Shown one piece after another: positions 99 to 5,518 of a stretch of 5,542 nt of DNA. Location of the stretch: contig CAMLRV010000161.1 in assembly GCA_946482495.1 (NCBI GenBank), forward strand, positions 1-5,542, in the 5' to 3' direction. The translations under genes and the position numbers were made by a program. The first letter of the stretch is position 1; every line of letters starts with the position of its first letter. The notes below the pieces were generated by a model that saw only the letters and a program-made list of their open reading frames with translations, was not told where the DNA came from and did not search any database. This stretch comes from an uncultured Flavobacteriia bacterium (GTDB taxonomy: Bacteria; Bacteroidota; Bacteroidia; Flavobacteriales; Flavobacteriaceae).

Positions 99-830
99 TT
101 ATTTTCTAGCTTTTGTAAATTTAATACCTTTTACTTGTGCATATTCTGGACTTGTAGTTCCGTAAACAGATTTAACATATTTTTTTACCTCAGCAGCAAT
201 ATCTACTAATCCCGTAATAGGATCATATAATGTTTTATTACGCTGTATTCTTGAATTACTAACTATTGTATAAGCAGTTGCAACGGCATTGTTTTTAGAT
301 GTTAAATCGATTTGCTTGGCTGCCAAAGTTGTTAATTTTAAATCATTTTCATTTGGAAGATAAGTAGCTTCTGATTGTAAAACAGAAACTAATGCGGCAA
401 AGTGTTGAATTAATTGATCATATGATTGCTGACTTGTACTAATTGTAGCTGGAGCCGGAGCATTTGAGTCATTTGGGGATTGTGTTGACGAAGATCTTCT
501 ACCTTGCATTTTACGATTGAAACCTTTTGCGTCGCTAATTTTTTCTTTTGGTGCATTTGTAGTTTCTAACGCACTTACCAATCTTGTTGATAATGATTTT
601 AACCCTGTGAACGCAATTATTCTATCATTCACGGAATTATTGTAAGCAGTATTTTTCGCAAGTACATCAGCTAATTTGGTTTGCGCTAATGTAGAAAGTG
701 TAATGAGTTGAGGGATTTTTAATGTGTTTTTTACAGGATTGTATGTTGCCCCGTAGCCTGTAACGAATGCAATAAGGTCTTGAAAGTTGGCAATGTTTTT
801 TGCATGACCTGTCTCTGATGTTGATACCAT
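99..830 (-). CDS. Hypothetical protein with an internal two-fold repeat
   Basis: A 243-residue protein of no function I can name. It has no signal peptide, membrane segment or recognisable catalytic motif, so it is probably cytoplasmic. It consists of two related helical halves, roughly residues 16-90 and 137-225. Each contains an A-T-Y-x-P segment (28-32 and 155-159), followed by an N/D-x-L-K stretch and a long Ala/Asn/Thr-rich helix. They are joined by a Ser/Pro/Ala-rich linker (about 103-136) that begins with a basic G-F-N-R-K-x-Q-G-R-R patch. The C-terminus is basic. The ATG at 830 is fixed by an in-frame TAA two codons upstream (834-836 on the plus strand). It is separated from the operon upstream by 153 bp that hold its own candidate promoter, so it is likely transcribed independently. 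Its base composition is visibly richer in G and C than the deaminase operon, which suggests it is resident rather than part of the island. That it is a real gene is nearly certain; its role is unknown. Confidence 0.85.
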   Translation of the reverse strand: MVSTSETGHAKNIANFQDLIAFVTGYGATYNPVKNTLKIPQLITLSTLAQTKLADVLAKNTAYNNSVNDRIIAFTGLKSLSTRLVSALETTNAPKEKISDAKGFNRKMQGRRSSSTQSPNDSNAPAPATISTSQQSYDQLIQHFAALVSVLQSEATYLPNENDLKLTTLAAKQIDLTSKNNAVATAYTIVSNSRIQRNKTLYDPITGLVDIAAEVKKYVKSVYGTTSPEYAQVKGIKFTKARK

Positions 831-918: not shown

Positions 919-942
919 ATTTATTATGAATACTTATTTTTT

Positions 943-969
943 GAAAATTAATATTTTCAGAAATATTAA
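943..969 (-). terminator. Candidate intrinsic terminator of the deaminase operon
   Basis: A perfect 9-bp inverted repeat (TTAATATTT at 948-956, AAATATTAA at 961-969) with a 4-base loop lies 14 bp past the stop codon of the DUF5131 gene. On the minus strand it is followed by four U and a C. The stem has no G or C, so it would be weak, but its placement directly after the last gene of the operon fits a terminator. Confidence 0.4.
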
Positions 970-983
970 AGGCGATAGATATT

Positions 984-1709
984 TTAGATTGAATATTGTA
1001 ATTCAATTTTAGGCATTTCATCATATGTTCTTCCATTCAATAGGCGCCCATTTGCTTTTTTATTTTTCCCTCCCCATTGCTTAAAGAAAAAAGCAACGTT
1101 GTTTACTTTGCATTGCTCTTGAATCTCCAAAACCCATTCTTTATCCATTCGTCTAGATTTATGCCCACTTTCACCGCCTACAATTACCCAATCAATATTA
1201 TTTAAATCAATTTCTCCTAAAGGCGCAAGCAATGGCTCTAGTGATAAAAACTTAACTTTTGCATTAATGTTTCTAATATCATCAATTCTATGCTTTTCTT
1301 CAGAATTTTCAACTGAAACACCCATCCAAATATTATGAGTCCATATTAATTCTGCATGTATTTCTAATAATCTTTCTGCTCTTTTAGTTAATACTTGGAA
1401 AATATGTTGTGGATTATCATTCATTACCTTAAACACTTTTTGAATGAATTCTAAATGAATATCTTCATGAAATAAATCACTCATAGAGTTCACAAAAACG
1501 ACTTTTGATTTTTTCCAAGTATAAGGAACCCTCAAACTATCTTCATGTGTTCTAACTTTGAAATTATCTTTATATTTTTCCAACCCCATTGCTTTTAACC
1601 TTTTTGACATAATCTCTGCATAACAGAATTTACATCCAGGTGATATTTTGGAGCATCCAGTCGTTGGATTCCACGTCATTTCTGTCCATTCAATACTAGA
1701 TTGGGCCAT
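984..1709 (-). CDS. DUF5131 / phage Gp37-Gp68 family three-Cys-motif protein
   Basis: A 241-residue member of the DUF5131 family (Pfam Gp37/Gp68), full length. The N-terminus carries the family signature: W-T-E-x-T-W-N-P (8-15), then the cysteine cluster C19-x6-C26-x2-C29 followed by Y-A-E (30-32). Other family blocks visible are V-N-S-M-S-D-L-F (73-80), W-M-G-V-S-V-E-N (128-135), F-L-S-L-E-P-L-L (154-161), V-I-V-G-G-E-S-G (175-182) and F-F-F-K-Q-W-G-G (207-214). The cysteine spacing recalls the iron-sulfur cluster motif of radical SAM enzymes, although the family's reaction is not established to my knowledge. Its ATG follows the TcmP stop codon directly (TAAATG), so translation is probably coupled and the two proteins are made together. 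Homologues occur in phages, mobile elements and bacterial genomes. Family call is firm; biochemical role is inference. Confidence 0.93.
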   Translation of the reverse strand: MAQSSIEWTEMTWNPTTGCSKISPGCKFCYAEIMSKRLKAMGLEKYKDNFKVRTHEDSLRVPYTWKKSKVVFVNSMSDLFHEDIHLEFIQKVFKVMNDNPQHIFQVLTKRAERLLEIHAELIWTHNIWMGVSVENSEEKHRIDDIRNINAKVKFLSLEPLLAPLGEIDLNNIDWVIVGGESGHKSRRMDKEWVLEIQEQCKVNNVAFFFKQWGGKNKKANGRLLNGRTYDEMPKIELQYSI

Positions 1710-2834
1710 TTAATTTTTTTTAAAAGTAACAATAATTTCATCACCAAAAGTTCCTGGTTTAGGTGGTTTTCCCTTTTTGGAAATTGCTTCAATTTCTTTA
1801 TTTTCATATAAATACAATAATGCTTCTTTATAATTTTTACTTATATATGGAGTATCTACATTATGATCATCATAAATTTGTTTCATTGTTAATTTTTTAC
1901 CAGCGTATTTAATTTTCAGTTCATCTTTTAAATCATCTAATGGCCTAGATAACTTAAATAGTAAAGTTTGTTGTGGCAAAAAGTCTGCTGGGTTATATGC
2001 AAATGTTGGTACGCCTTGATTATTATTAGTACTTTCTTTTGCCATTATATCTTTCATAATACCATACCCTTTTGGATTTTTACTCACATAAATAAGATGA
2101 TGACTTGTTTTCTCCCCTTTATTATTCCTAAATCTAAATGGCAAAACATATCTTGAGCCATATTCTTTCAATGCTTGACAAAGTTCTTCAATAATAATTA
2201 ATTCTCTATTATTTGCGCCTTTATTTTTTATTTTATTTCTTAAACTCTCACACCTATTGTCACCAAACAAAGCATTCATATGAGATTCTACTTTTGAATT
2301 ATTTAAACCCATATTTATTCTATTGTAATTAAAAAAAAATATCGCATCACATCCCCAATCTTTAAGAACCGAATTCACTAATCTTATTGATAATCCTTTA
2401 TAACCCCAAGGATCAACAAAAAATAAAGTTGGAATAAGGCTAATTTTTTCGAATTCTTTTACAATTTTTTCCCCAACTTCTTGATTCCAAATCTCTGGTT
2501 TATACTTTAAATTTTCTATACCAGTAATTTCAGAAATTGTTTTCTCCAATTCTTGTGTATTTGTTTCATCCTTATCATTAAAAACTGTTACTAACCTGTT
2601 ACTTAGGTCTAGATTTTCAACAGCATTAGACAAAATCATATATGGAGTTGAAACAGTTCCATCTTTATATCTTCCTGGACCAGCAAAAAGGTCTATATAT
2701 GCAATTTTTTGAGAATGTTGAGGATTTCTTTTTTGAGTACCTATTATTATTTTTGCCCAAACATCAAAATATTTTGAAACTATTGTTGACTTTACTAATG
2801 ATTGCTCTTTTTGTTCATTAAAAAACTCACTCAT
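1710..2834 (-). CDS. tcmP: Three-Cys-motif partner protein TcmP
   Basis: A 374-residue TcmP protein, the family defined by lying next to DUF5131 (three-Cys-motif) genes, exactly as here. The first ~190 residues look like a class I SAM-methyltransferase fold. Y-I-D-L-F-A-G-P-G at 46-54 matches the glycine-rich motif I, F-N-D-K-D at 85-89 fits the acidic end of strand 2, and F-V-D-P-W-G at 139-144 sits where a motif IV (D-P-P-Y-like) would be. A strand F-F-F-N-Y-N-R (166-172) follows. The C-terminal ~90 residues (from about 285) look like a small helical or winged-helix domain with a Lys/Pro-rich loop (353-360). No methyltransferase activity is proven by this. The ATG is fixed by an in-frame stop five codons upstream (2847-2849). 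It lies 35 bp after the deaminase gene with no terminator or promoter evident between them, so it is the second gene of the operon. Confidence 0.93.
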   Translation of the reverse strand: MSEFFNEQKEQSLVKSTIVSKYFDVWAKIIIGTQKRNPQHSQKIAYIDLFAGPGRYKDGTVSTPYMILSNAVENLDLSNRLVTVFNDKDETNTQELEKTISEITGIENLKYKPEIWNQEVGEKIVKEFEKISLIPTLFFVDPWGYKGLSIRLVNSVLKDWGCDAIFFFNYNRINMGLNNSKVESHMNALFGDNRCESLRNKIKNKGANNRELIIIEELCQALKEYGSRYVLPFRFRNNKGEKTSHHLIYVSKNPKGYGIMKDIMAKESTNNNQGVPTFAYNPADFLPQQTLLFKLSRPLDDLKDELKIKYAGKKLTMKQIYDDHNVDTPYISKNYKEALLYLYENKEIEAISKKGKPPKPGTFGDEIIVTFKKN

Positions 2835-2869
2835 AAATGTATTATTTTAATTAAATTCTAAATTTTACT

Positions 2870-4921
2870 TCATAGACCTTCAACATCTTCCTCATTATTT
2901 TCAAATTTCGAAAGTCCTAGGTCAATTATCATTTGCACATCTTCTAATGATTTAATACTTTGAATTTGTTCATATTTTGGATAAATTTTCTTCAAAATAT
3001 TTTTAAATTGATTTATATTAATATTTTTATTATCCATTTCTAAAGTCATTGTTATTTCATCCTTAGAAGACAAATAAGGTTCATATAATTTATGATAAGA
3101 ATTACCAATAGCACCTGAAAATGGGAAAAGTATTGGTTTAATTCTTCCTCCATGAAGTATTTGGTCAACCGCAATTCCTGGATATGGGTCTATGTAATAA
3201 ATAATCCTTATTCCTAATTGATAAGCTTTTTTTGAACATAACTCACATGGACTAGCAGTAGTAAAAAGAATCCCATGTTCAATCCCTAACCCGCCAGATT
3301 TAGTAAGTTGTAACATAGCGTTTTCTTCAGCATGTAATGACCTTGTATGCACTTGATTAGATTCACCCTCGTAATGATTGTGTATAGATTTAAAACAAAA
3401 AGAACAATTTTTACCATTAAGTTCTTCTTTTTTTATGTTATAATCATCTTGAAAATAATCAATTATAGCATCCTTAAAATTAGAAACGGAGCTGTCTTTA
3501 TATTTATATTCAGAAGTATTAGTGATGTTTCCTTTTTCAAATTCGCTATAATGAACACTGTCGTTAATATTACCGTTGAAATAATCCTCTACATTTCTAA
3601 GATTACATGGAGTATGTCCTTTTGCTACGTCATTCCAACCTATTGATTTTGCAACAAAATTTTTATCTGTAATTACTGCACCTACTTGTCTAGAAATACA
3701 TCCAGAATTTAATTTAGCTGTATATGCAATTTGCATATTTCTTTCACTTGCACTTGGTGTTATTAATCCAGGTTGATAAATAAGAGAAATCAATTTCATT
3801 AATTGTTCCTCTCTGGTTAAGAAAGTATTAAAAATCTTATCTTTTTCTAAAGAAGTAGCATCATGTTCTTTTTCAAATATTCCCAAAAAAGAATTAATTT
3901 GATCAACTTTAAGATTGAATATATGATAATCACTTTTTTGAATACAATTCTCTACGTTTGGAGAAGTGAATATCCCTTTTGAAAAATCTTTATTTTTATA
4001 TTCAGTTTCATCTAAATCAATTAGTTTTTCAACTAATTCTAATCTCTCAGATTTATTAGGAATTTTTTCCAAAAATCTTTCATCTAATCTTTCTTTTGAA
4101 TTTTCAAGAATATCCTTAGTTGCTATCATATAAAAAGCAGAATATCGCTCTTTAAAAAAAGTAATTTCTAATGAGTTTCTAAGTGAGTCAATAGCAATTT
4201 TTGTAGGTCTAGACACTGAAACATTAAATTTTTTCCTTGCTTTAATAATTTTATTTATCAATTCAGCAATGGTATAGACATTATTAGGATTAGTATTGTT
4301 AACAATAGTTGATCTTTTAGATTTTCTAATATTACATGAAGCAAAATGTAACAATCGAGTTCTTCTAAAATAATTCCCATCTGATTCTAAAACACTCATA
4401 AAATCATTAGCAAATTCCATAAACTCCTCACCAAAAAAAATATTATTTAATGACAACAAGCTATCATTACTTTTTATTTTTTCAAAATTTGGCAATTGAT
4501 TAATGCTCTCCAATAAATCTCTAAATTTGACAAAAATAATTTCTAATTTGATATATTTATTTTCAACTAAATCTTTGTTATCTTCTGTTTTACTTTCTCT
4601 GTAAAATTTATTTAAAAGATTCTTTATTTTTATAAAATCTTTTCCTGTCTTTTTTATTATGTATAATAATAAAACTTTTTTATATTCAATTATATCATAT
4701 TGTTGCCAATTATTTCCAAACGACAAATAGTTCTTGGTAATCTCAAATTTTCTTTTAAATATAGGGTCTGAAAAATCACTAACTTCTCTTAATCCTTGAA
4801 TCAAATTATTAAAATCTTTACTAAGTAAATCTGAGATTTGTGAACATCCTGAACCGGTTCTTCCTGTAAGACCGATTATTGTAAAATCTGTTCTATGTTT
4901 ATAAAGTTCTTTTAATTTCAT
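2870..4921 (-). CDS. avcD: Anti-phage dCTP/dCMP deaminase (AvcD/DcdV type)
   Basis: A 683-residue two-domain nucleotide deaminase. The family protects bacteria by deaminating dCTP/dCMP on infection, depleting dC nucleotides so that phage DNA synthesis stalls. The N-terminal domain begins with a P-loop-like G-L-T-G-R-T-G-S-G-C-S (17-27), in which Cys26 stands where a Walker A lysine is expected. A family-typical kinase-like segment follows, I-D-S-L-R-N-S-L-E then F-K-E-R-Y-S-A-F-Y (244-264). The C-terminal deaminase domain (about 385-610) has S-G-C-x3-V-G-A-V-I (406-417), G-W-N-D (428-431), the catalytic H-A-E (His530, Glu532) and P-C-x2-C (Cys559, Cys562) for zinc. A ~95-residue insert between G-W-N-D and H-A-E contains C506-x2-C509 and nearby His514/His516, possibly a second metal site. 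An in-frame TAG two codons before the ATG (4925-4927) rules out a longer N-terminus. It is the first gene of a three-gene operon and has a long leader (see 4922-5104). The length is usual for the family. All catalytic residues are present, so it is probably active. Confidence 0.93.
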   Translation of the reverse strand: MKLKELYKHRTDFTIIGLTGRTGSGCSQISDLLSKDFNNLIQGLREVSDFSDPIFKRKFEITKNYLSFGNNWQQYDIIEYKKVLLLYIIKKTGKDFIKIKNLLNKFYRESKTEDNKDLVENKYIKLEIIFVKFRDLLESINQLPNFEKIKSNDSLLSLNNIFFGEEFMEFANDFMSVLESDGNYFRRTRLLHFASCNIRKSKRSTIVNNTNPNNVYTIAELINKIIKARKKFNVSVSRPTKIAIDSLRNSLEITFFKERYSAFYMIATKDILENSKERLDERFLEKIPNKSERLELVEKLIDLDETEYKNKDFSKGIFTSPNVENCIQKSDYHIFNLKVDQINSFLGIFEKEHDATSLEKDKIFNTFLTREEQLMKLISLIYQPGLITPSASERNMQIAYTAKLNSGCISRQVGAVITDKNFVAKSIGWNDVAKGHTPCNLRNVEDYFNGNINDSVHYSEFEKGNITNTSEYKYKDSSVSNFKDAIIDYFQDDYNIKKEELNGKNCSFCFKSIHNHYEGESNQVHTRSLHAEENAMLQLTKSGGLGIEHGILFTTASPCELCSKKAYQLGIRIIYYIDPYPGIAVDQILHGGRIKPILFPFSGAIGNSYHKLYEPYLSSKDEITMTLEMDNKNININQFKNILKKIYPKYEQIQSIKSLEDVQMIIDLGLSKFENNEEDVEGL

Positions 4922-4984
4922 TTTCTATTTTAATTTTTAACACTCTTACTAATTTACTTCCTCTTTATTCAACTTTTGATATCT

Positions 4985-5009
4985 AATCTTTAATTTAATT
5001 CTAAAGATT
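4985..5009. repeat. Inverted repeat in the deaminase leader
   Basis: AATCTTTA at 4985-4992 and TAAAGATT at 5002-5009 are exact complements separated by 9 bases. On the minus strand it is not followed by a U-run, so it is not a terminator for the leader. Read on the plus strand it is followed by TTTATATT, but no plus-strand gene precedes it. Confidence 0.4.
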
Positions 5010-5028
5010 TTTATATTATAGTCTTTTT

Positions 5029-5059
5029 CAAACTTAACAATAATAAATAGGTCACACAA
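5029..5059 (-). promoter_or_regulatory. Proximal promoter of the deaminase operon
   Basis: On the minus strand TTG (5059-5057) is followed after 20 bp by TAAGTTTG (5036-5029), an exact TAnnTTTG -7 box at near-ideal flavobacterial spacing. The start would be near 5022, giving a leader of roughly 100 nt. The GAAA-loop hairpin at 5061-5074 lies just outside it and would be transcribed only from the distal promoter. Confidence 0.5.
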
Positions 5060-5060
5060 T

Positions 5061-5074
5061 AGGTATTTCTACCT
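5061..5074. repeat. Small inverted repeat, GAAA-capped hairpin on the minus strand
   Basis: AGGTA (5061-5065) and TACCT (5070-5074) are complementary with 4 bases between. On the minus strand the loop is GAAA, a stable GNRA tetraloop. On the plus strand the stem extends by a U-G and two A-U pairs and is followed by a short U-run. It could be an RNA structural element of the leader or a repressor half-site pair next to the proximal -33 box. Confidence 0.35.
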
Positions 5075-5109
5075 GTTTTTCTAAAACTTTGACAGATATT
5101 TTGACACAC

Positions 5110-5143
5110 CAAACCTATAAATTATTACACCACTTTAGAGCAA
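5110..5143 (-). promoter_or_regulatory. Distal promoter of the deaminase operon
   Basis: On the minus strand TTG (5143-5141) precedes TAGGTTTG (5117-5110), an exact TAnnTTTG match, by 23 bp, the upper end of the range described for flavobacteria. The start would be near 5104. It lies within the open extension of the divergent plus-strand gene, so the two readings of this stretch compete. Confidence 0.4.
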
Positions 5144-5182
5144 TGCAGAACCAACGACGATTGGGAAAATATAACCATAAAA

Positions 5183-5518
5183 ATGGAAGAGTATTTAACC
5201 AAAATGAAAAACACAACTGGACCACAACAATATAAAATGCAAGTAAATTTAGAATTCCCGATTGATAGGTTACTTCAGTTTATTTCTTTGTATAATAATT
5301 TTATTGACCAAGGCGGGAAATTTTACGAGAAGTTTAAAGTAATTTTAAATAGCTATGAAAATGAAAAGCAATGCGAATCCAAACTACCATTAGAATATAA
5401 AAAACTCAAAACAGATATTGATATTGCCATTGATAAATTCAATATAGCCTATAAACCTGTAGAAATTAATGGCACCAAAATGAAAGAAATTTTATACGGT
5501 TTAAATGAATTCGAGTAG
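5183..5518 (+). CDS. Hypothetical protein, 111 residues, possibly truncated at the N-terminus
   Basis: A small, charged, mostly helical protein that I do not recognise. No signal peptide, membrane segment or catalytic motif is visible. It has a mid-protein hydrophobic/aromatic stretch (residues 24-50: F-P-I-D-R-L-L-Q-F-I-S-L-Y) and a Lys/Asp/Ile-rich C-terminal half. The chosen ATG at 5183 has only an A-rich upstream region, and codon 8 (5204) is an alternative start. The frame remains open upstream to a TGA at 5102-5104; the intervening 26 codons contain no ATG but read like protein (see findings). The gene may therefore be the remnant of a longer one or use a non-ATG start. It ends in TAG followed at once by TAATAA. 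It is divergent from the deaminase operon, and no exact TAnnTTTG box precedes it on the plus strand. Nothing ties it to the defence genes except position. Confidence 0.6.
   Translation: MEEYLTKMKNTTGPQQYKMQVNLEFPIDRLLQFISLYNNFIDQGGKFYEKFKVILNSYENEKQCESKLPLEYKKLKTDIDIAIDKFNIAYKPVEINGTKMKEILYGLNEFE

Follow-up and report, generated by a model that had tools for sequence, protein, structure and literature searches.

An AvcD-type deaminase and a TcmP-DUF5131 pair as two putative anti-phage modules in one Flavobacteriia locus

Two catalogued kinds of anti-phage gene, one of them a candidate, bear on the locus considered here, a row of three genes in a 5,542-nucleotide stretch of DNA from an uncultured Flavobacteriia bacterium (contig CAMLRV010000161.1 of assembly GCA_946482495.1; this whole stretch is the window) in which an AvcD-type deaminase is joined to the genes for TcmP and DUF5131. 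For the action of AvcD we draw on PMC10511110 and on general background. The preliminary description of this DNA took TcmP and DUF5131 mainly for a duo of unknown function. This must be corrected, as PADLOC-DB already lists TcmP plus DUF5131 as the candidates PDC-M30 and PDC-M41. The embedding study is reportedly that of Payne et al. 2024 (bioRxiv 2024.01.29.577857). In the parts of PMC10855318 that concern them, PDC systems are termed nonexperimentally validated and are found via 'guilt-by-embedding', and PDC-M30 is predicted in 32 strains of a 100-strain P. aeruginosa panel, 68.8% of those being resistant. PMC11878078, in the part available, likewise names PDC-M30, and a search of the accessible text of PMC13092281 (DefensePredictor) for six terms gave no match. 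The three genes together were said to be undescribed as a system, and we likewise found no description of them in the open-licence literature of PubMed Central (PMC); we regard the combination as a variant, arisen repeatedly, of known kinds.

We read the locus as two autonomous anti-phage modules stacked in one probable transcription unit, not as an obligate three-part system, and would give this reading a probability of about 0.6. The first module would be the deaminase, which, by homology to characterised dCTP/dCMP deaminases, is expected to deplete deoxycytidine nucleotides in phage infection. The second would be the TcmP-DUF5131 pair, corresponding to candidate system PDC-M30, in which DUF5131, probably an enzyme like those of the radical S-adenosylmethionine (SAM) group, and TcmP, probably a methyltransferase of nucleic-acid type, may act jointly on a nucleic-acid base or a nucleotide. 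Both modules behave like cassettes entering defence operons repeatedly, above all type I restriction operons. The genes concerned lie in the window as follows:

2870-4921, minus strand: deaminase, AvcD-type by family scans; 683 amino acids, intact open reading frame (ORF)
2835-2869, minus strand: spacer between deaminase and TcmP; 35 nucleotides, without a stable hairpin
1710-2834, minus strand: TcmP (PDC-M30A type) by family scans; 374 amino acids, intact ORF
984-1709, minus strand: DUF5131 (phage Gp37/Gp68 family; PDC-M30B/M41B) by family scans; 241 amino acids, intact ORF

The deaminase thus comes first, TcmP follows after 35 nucleotides and DUF5131 adjoins TcmP without a gap, and the three same-strand genes previously proposed are indeed three intact minus-strand ORFs. 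From their spacing and common strand, the trio is probably one transcription unit.

Each module mostly occurs without the other in the samples considered here. A 30-member deaminase alignment, searched against species genomes, gave 201 relatives, the best 80 of which were fetched; flanked DUF5131 loci number 88 (20 from Flavobacteriaceae and 68 from a phylum search), and gene calls in the fetched loci simply took the longest ORF. A deaminase lies in the fetched flank of a single one of the 88 DUF5131 loci and is absent from 87. Conversely, DUF5131 is not among the same-strand neighbours in 73 of 79 deaminase loci, where neighbours are up to three same-strand genes with gaps of up to 300 nucleotides, and where one of the 80 loci, having no long enough deaminase ORF that could be recognised, was dropped from both the tree and the neighbour clusters. 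The nearest fetched deaminases, those of L001 and L002, are 86-88% identical to the one in the window, and their genomes hold no DUF5131; metagenomic deaminase proteins reach 88% identity. Next to the L001 deaminase are a MazG-like protein and a Schlafen-type helicase, and next to that of L002 is a type IIG restriction enzyme. The leader ahead of the deaminase (4922-5182) is not conserved in L001 or L002 despite the similarity of the deaminases, and since the upstream DNA differs in this way between the window and both loci, the deaminase ORF itself looks like a cassette. TcmP and DUF5131 are closely though not invariably paired: of the 22 Flavobacteriaceae DUF5131 hits that score best, 20 have TcmP immediately upstream; strict gene calls give 63 pairs, and a looser rule 66 loci (46 of the 68 from the phylum plus the 20 from the family).

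The trio recurs beyond this strain, so that one condition set for refuting the proposal does not apply, but it is rare. The pair accompanies the deaminase in six of the 80 fetched deaminase loci (L010, L014, L024, L026, L032 and L038) and in none of 22 viral deaminase loci. About 0.06 linked loci in 80 would be expected by chance, an estimate derived from the deaminase and DUF5131 search counts for genomes of ~3.6 Mb with uniform placement, a uniformity that defence islands break. A further case is L194, in genome G603: here the dCTP deaminase is canonical (466 bits against NF041025, over its cut-off) and adjoins TcmP and DUF5131 on the same strand. In all seven trio loci, as in the window, the genes share a strand, and except in L038, where hsdS stands between pair and deaminase, no gene intervenes. 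Three orders are found: deaminase-TcmP-DUF5131 (with two TcmPs in L024), TcmP-DUF5131-deaminase, and TcmP-DUF5131-hsdS-deaminase (L038). Across 395 Bacteroidota genomes, an AvcD-type deaminase occurs in 10 (E<=1e-30), four of them over the curated cut-off, and DUF5131 in 67 (E<=1e-70); the two genomes with both are G603, where they are adjacent, and G658, where they lie on separate contigs. Among 397 Flavobacteriaceae genomes, DUF5131 exceeds its cut-off in 28 and a full-length deaminase is present in eight (one of them, in G403, stop-broken), G315 being the sole genome with both, ~630 kilobases apart. Some deaminase-profile match was obtained in 383 of the 397, of which the eight full-length ones, G403 included, are counted; partial deaminases are found in G139, G063, G068 and G211, other matches, among those listed, are short ORFs of ~140-180 amino acids, and as at most three candidates were scored per genome, copies may be missed.

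On a quick maximum-likelihood tree of the deaminase (80 sequences), the trio label needs six changes, and six are forced by well-supported branches. A single ancestral trio was dropped on this ground. The seven trio rows are scattered much as they are when the labels are shuffled (mean of the shuffles 6.8 changes; 110 of 500 shuffles as low). The preliminary description had offered two alternatives, a composite system and a pair that serves defence by itself. With DUF5131 missing from L001 and L002, the deaminase missing from 87 of 88 DUF5131 loci and the trio scattered on the tree, the former is the weaker of the two, and the latter would fit better. Further metagenomic trios, proposed from contigs of equal size (P0030/P0131 at 10770; P0117/P0125 at 14790), were set aside as suggestive only, because short contigs (2259 and 2109) coincide as well where both genes cannot fit.

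Some trio and deaminase loci have features of their own. In L194 (7454-10951), TcmP-DUF5131 is followed by the canonical dCTP deaminase and an ORF of 85 amino acids, so that a second deaminase subfamily is joined to the pair. A NACHT-domain (STAND-type) protein lies on the opposite strand just past the trio of L024 (13051-16641). The full-length deaminase match in G403 (C14:23252-25246) is broken by five stop codons and represents a decayed copy.

The gene neighbourhoods of both modules are rich in restriction genes. The same-strand neighbour clusters of the 79 deaminase loci are HsdM/HsdS (12), DUF5131 (6) and TcmP (6), with the others at four or fewer each, among them MazG-like, multiubiquitin/ThiF/DUF6527, HsdR, Schlafen-type helicase, Piwi and AbiH proteins (one example scanned per cluster). 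Around the 63 TcmP-DUF5131 pairs the leading clusters are HsdM/HsdS (16) and HsdR (12), and no other non-TcmP cluster exceeds two. In flanking DNA, hsd genes were found at 19 of 88 DUF5131 loci (18 of the 68 phylum-wide, one of the 20 from Flavobacteriaceae), 17 of 80 deaminase loci, none of 22 viral deaminase loci and one of 40 controls, the last being regions of 19.5 kilobases on long contigs from 28 of the 67 DUF5131-bearing genomes, longer than many of the test loci. The hsd queries, named by eye and then confirmed with Pfam as carrying HsdR, Methylase_S and HsdM domains, were taken from L149, L038 and L014, which therefore match by construction. Within type I operons, the pair sits between hsdR and hsdS/hsdM (for example in L149, L161, L162, L201, L203 and L215), and L014 and L038 have both modules within one type I restriction operon; a type IIG enzyme precedes the trio in L010. 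Together with a position between integrase and repressor in two Gordonia phages, the excess of hsd genes over controls agrees with the earlier proposal that the pair keeps company with defence genes.

Beside these clusters, the deaminase of L039 lies within a row of multiubiquitin, DUF6791/ThiF (E1-like), deaminase and DUF6527 genes, an arrangement of four of the 79 loci (domains scanned in L039); in L001 (5286-7813) the MazG-like and Schlafen-type helicase genes are just upstream of the deaminase and belong to clusters of four and three loci (domains scanned in L001), and in L005 (10080-12161) a Piwi-domain protein from a three-locus cluster is downstream. Three DUF5131 loci in which no TcmP was recognised (L172, L188 and L170) have type I restriction genes nearby; the different proteins encoded upstream of DUF5131 there may be an alternative partner or a TcmP that has diverged.

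Several observations weigh against the two-module reading. For the pair, we found no experimental work, phage assays included, in the open-licence PMC literature. In Flavobacteriaceae, the family of the window, a single pair (L149) out of the 20 with flanks belongs to a type I operon, no linked trio was found in the 397 genomes, and several pairs lie between what, judged from sequence, look like housekeeping genes. Pairs are solitary in 20 of 63 cases. TcmP was recognised beside none of the eight weaker Flavobacteriaceae DUF5131 hits, and phylum-wide it lies within 600 nucleotides at 46 of 68 DUF5131 loci, with none at 21 and one more locus at a contig end; DUF5131 may therefore have further partners or function by itself as well. 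Plasmid records with DUF5131 relatives number 405 and phage records 159 (15 and 5 for TcmP at the same E-value limit), and DUF5131 is thus not solely a host-defence gene. The structural models of TcmP and DUF5131 are only moderate, with a predicted local distance difference test (pLDDT) score of 72. As for the deaminase, it scores 305 bits against NF041025, under the 400-bit cut-off, and we therefore call it AvcD-type and do not file it as an equivalog; an Rfam scan and a comparison of leaders revealed no AvcI-like antitoxin RNA near it, although AvcI may lie outside Rfam.

We considered how far other explanations could account for the same data. The most credible of them, though unlikely, sees in the pair a cassette, mobile or selfish, without a defence role, its co-location with defence genes reflecting shared variable islands and phages. 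The solitary pairs, the several that adjoin housekeeping genes and the occurrence of DUF5131 on phages and plasmids would all follow from this. The location of the pair inside type I restriction operons, with hsdR on one side and hsdS/hsdM on the other, does not, nor does the conservation of the cysteine and methyltransferase motifs. In Gordonia phages Easley and Angelique, the two inspected, the pair lies between integrase and immunity repressor, its genes convergent, a slot that also argues against a merely selfish cassette. In three mycobacteriophage loci (L264, L265 and L266), DUF5131 is more distant (37-41% identity) and lies among replication or recombination genes, and, unlike in the Gordonia phages, no TcmP was recognised near it in these records.

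We are a little more sceptical of the idea that the pair is an accessory to whatever defence gene accompanies it, for example by modifying host nucleic acid or nucleotides so as to spare the host or cut the cost of its partner. The partners are varied and include different nucleases and enzymes that destroy nucleotides: type I restriction, the type IIG enzyme of L010, dCTP deaminases, an EcoRI-type methylase with a type II enzyme (L142), an OLD/GajA-like ATPase (L143) and a PDC-S28 helicase. The partners often occur without the pair, however, and the 20 solitary pairs of 63 also speak against this idea. The helicase case is on S. meliloti pSymA (L262:4083-9402), where a TcmP directly follows a PDC-S28 helicase (802 bits) and the other strand carries DUF5131 and another TcmP. 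In Table 1 of PMC12445080, the part of that paper on which we rely, the TcmP gene SMa2243 comes right after the defence helicase Hna, SMa2245, and NolR raises both ~two-fold; judged by position and family, the pSymA helicase ORF is probably SMa2245.

More doubtful again is a chemical link between the modules, in which a radical-SAM enzyme with a viperin/RlmN-like fold and a Trm1/RlmJ-like methyltransferase would together produce a modified base or nucleotide, while deaminase and pair would share the cytidine nucleotide pool and be functionally synergistic. If this were true, the anti-phage chemistry of TcmP-DUF5131 would be of a new kind. An obligate three-gene machine, in which for instance the pair senses and the deaminase kills, is very improbable: the modules do directly adjoin in the window and in six of the seven other trio loci, and they recur together in several deaminase clades and with a canonical dCTP deaminase, but close relatives of the deaminase (L001, L002) come from genomes without DUF5131, 73 of 79 deaminase loci and all but one of the 88 flanked DUF5131 loci are without the other module as a neighbour, and the gene order takes three forms.

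The reading of two stacked autonomous modules has implications for how such loci are viewed and used. An anti-phage-type deaminase and a candidate module combine repeatedly, like interchangeable parts. Moreover, the locus is small and cloneable, so that the function of a widespread pair (DUF5131 in 67 of 395 sampled Bacteroidota genomes at E<=1e-70) could be tested with the deaminase alongside as a likely positive control.

The remaining features of the window concern its transcription signals and flanks:

99-830, minus strand: flanking ORF, 243 amino acids; no family
942-1007, minus strand: two weak AU-rich stems, unconvincing as a terminator
4922-5182, minus strand: leader ahead of the deaminase; without an Rfam match, without an exact Bacteroidota promoter match
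5183-5518, plus strand: flanking ORF, 111 amino acids; no family

Neither flanking ORF has a match in Pfam, NCBIfam, PADLOC or PHROGs, or a counterpart in any fetched locus; Rfam families at gathering scores and plasmid DNA near-identical to the window were likewise sought and not found. The signals do not bear out a promoter only at the front and a hairpin only at the end of the trio, as had been proposed. A sigma-70 scan of the window gives 28 sites against 35.7 in shuffles, and on the minus strand several fall within genes and none in 4922-5182. The Bacteroidota-type pattern TTTG-N17-23-TAnnTTTG has one match in the window (0.73 expected); it lies on the minus strand (887-919) and precedes the next gene, not the deaminase. 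At the 3' end, one 7-bp stem (988-1007) is inside the last DUF5131 codons and another (942-959) is past the DUF5131 stop; both are AU-rich, comparable folding occurs in 9 of 200 shuffles, no U-tract follows either, and a terminator scan lists nothing at the DUF5131 end of the trio. The leader before the deaminase folds too, though not better than shuffles.

The proteins and their arrangement can finally be set beside the known systems that they most resemble. The deaminase matches PF00383 (47.5 bits) and PADLOC dCTPase (382 bits) in profile scans, and its build, an N-terminal P-loop region (GLTGRTGSGCS), a long middle part and a C-terminal zinc deaminase (HAEEN, PCELC), places the P-loop (GLTGRTGSG) and both zinc-deaminase motifs in one chain. 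Residues H530, A531, E532, P558, C559 and C562 are invariant among 30 aligned relatives. The protein is thus, as first described, probably an AvcD-type anti-phage dCTP/dCMP deaminase, judging from its sequence. It has in common with AvcD and the anti-phage dCTP deaminases (NF041025; PADLOC dCTPase) the N-terminal P-loop and the C-terminal zinc deaminase with intact HAE and PCxxC. It differs in length, the NF041025 model having 437 positions against 683 amino acids here, in its score (305 bits, below 400), and from AvcD systems with an AvcI RNA in that none is recognisable upstream.

TcmP matches TIGR04474 (205 bits; cut-off 53) and PDC-M30A of PADLOC (85 bits), and ends in a PF22560 GMT-wHTH winged helix. 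It has a Rossmann-type methyltransferase fold with a glycine-rich motif I, a motif that varies in the family, as D.FAG.G is found in 39 of 65 TcmPs of a wider set. A search of BFVD with its model returned mostly various methyltransferases, and TcmP is probably, on this model, an RNA-type class I methyltransferase (RlmJ/Trm1-like) with a C-terminal GMT-like winged helix. Identity to the Trm1 and RlmJ RNA methyltransferases is ~10%, and TcmP adds the winged helix to them. Among sequences in the PDB, neither TcmP nor DUF5131 has a convincing relative.

DUF5131 matches PF07505 (335 bits; cut-off 28.9) and PDC-M41B/M30B of PADLOC (428/426 bits), and is homologous in sequence to a named radical SAM family, TIGR04471 (E 4.5e-33, 115 bits, under its equivalog cut-off of 355). 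Foldseek gave no match for its model at E<=0.001; a second aligner alone put radical SAM enzymes at the head of its list, with a designed TIM barrel inside the tie range. We consider it probably a radical-SAM-like TIM-barrel protein with likeness to lipoyl synthase, viperin and RlmN, an assignment less sure than that of TcmP. The resemblance to those enzymes, suggested by the model and by TIGR04471, is qualified by the cysteine motif, which is CX6CX2C in 88 of 90 DUF5131 proteins and not the canonical radical SAM cluster motif CX3CX2C. As a pair, the genes agree with PDC-M30 and PDC-M41 in consisting of the same TcmP and DUF5131 components (A and B of either candidate), adjacent and with TcmP first; the pair of the window stands behind a deaminase, whereas its relatives are often found inside type I restriction operons.

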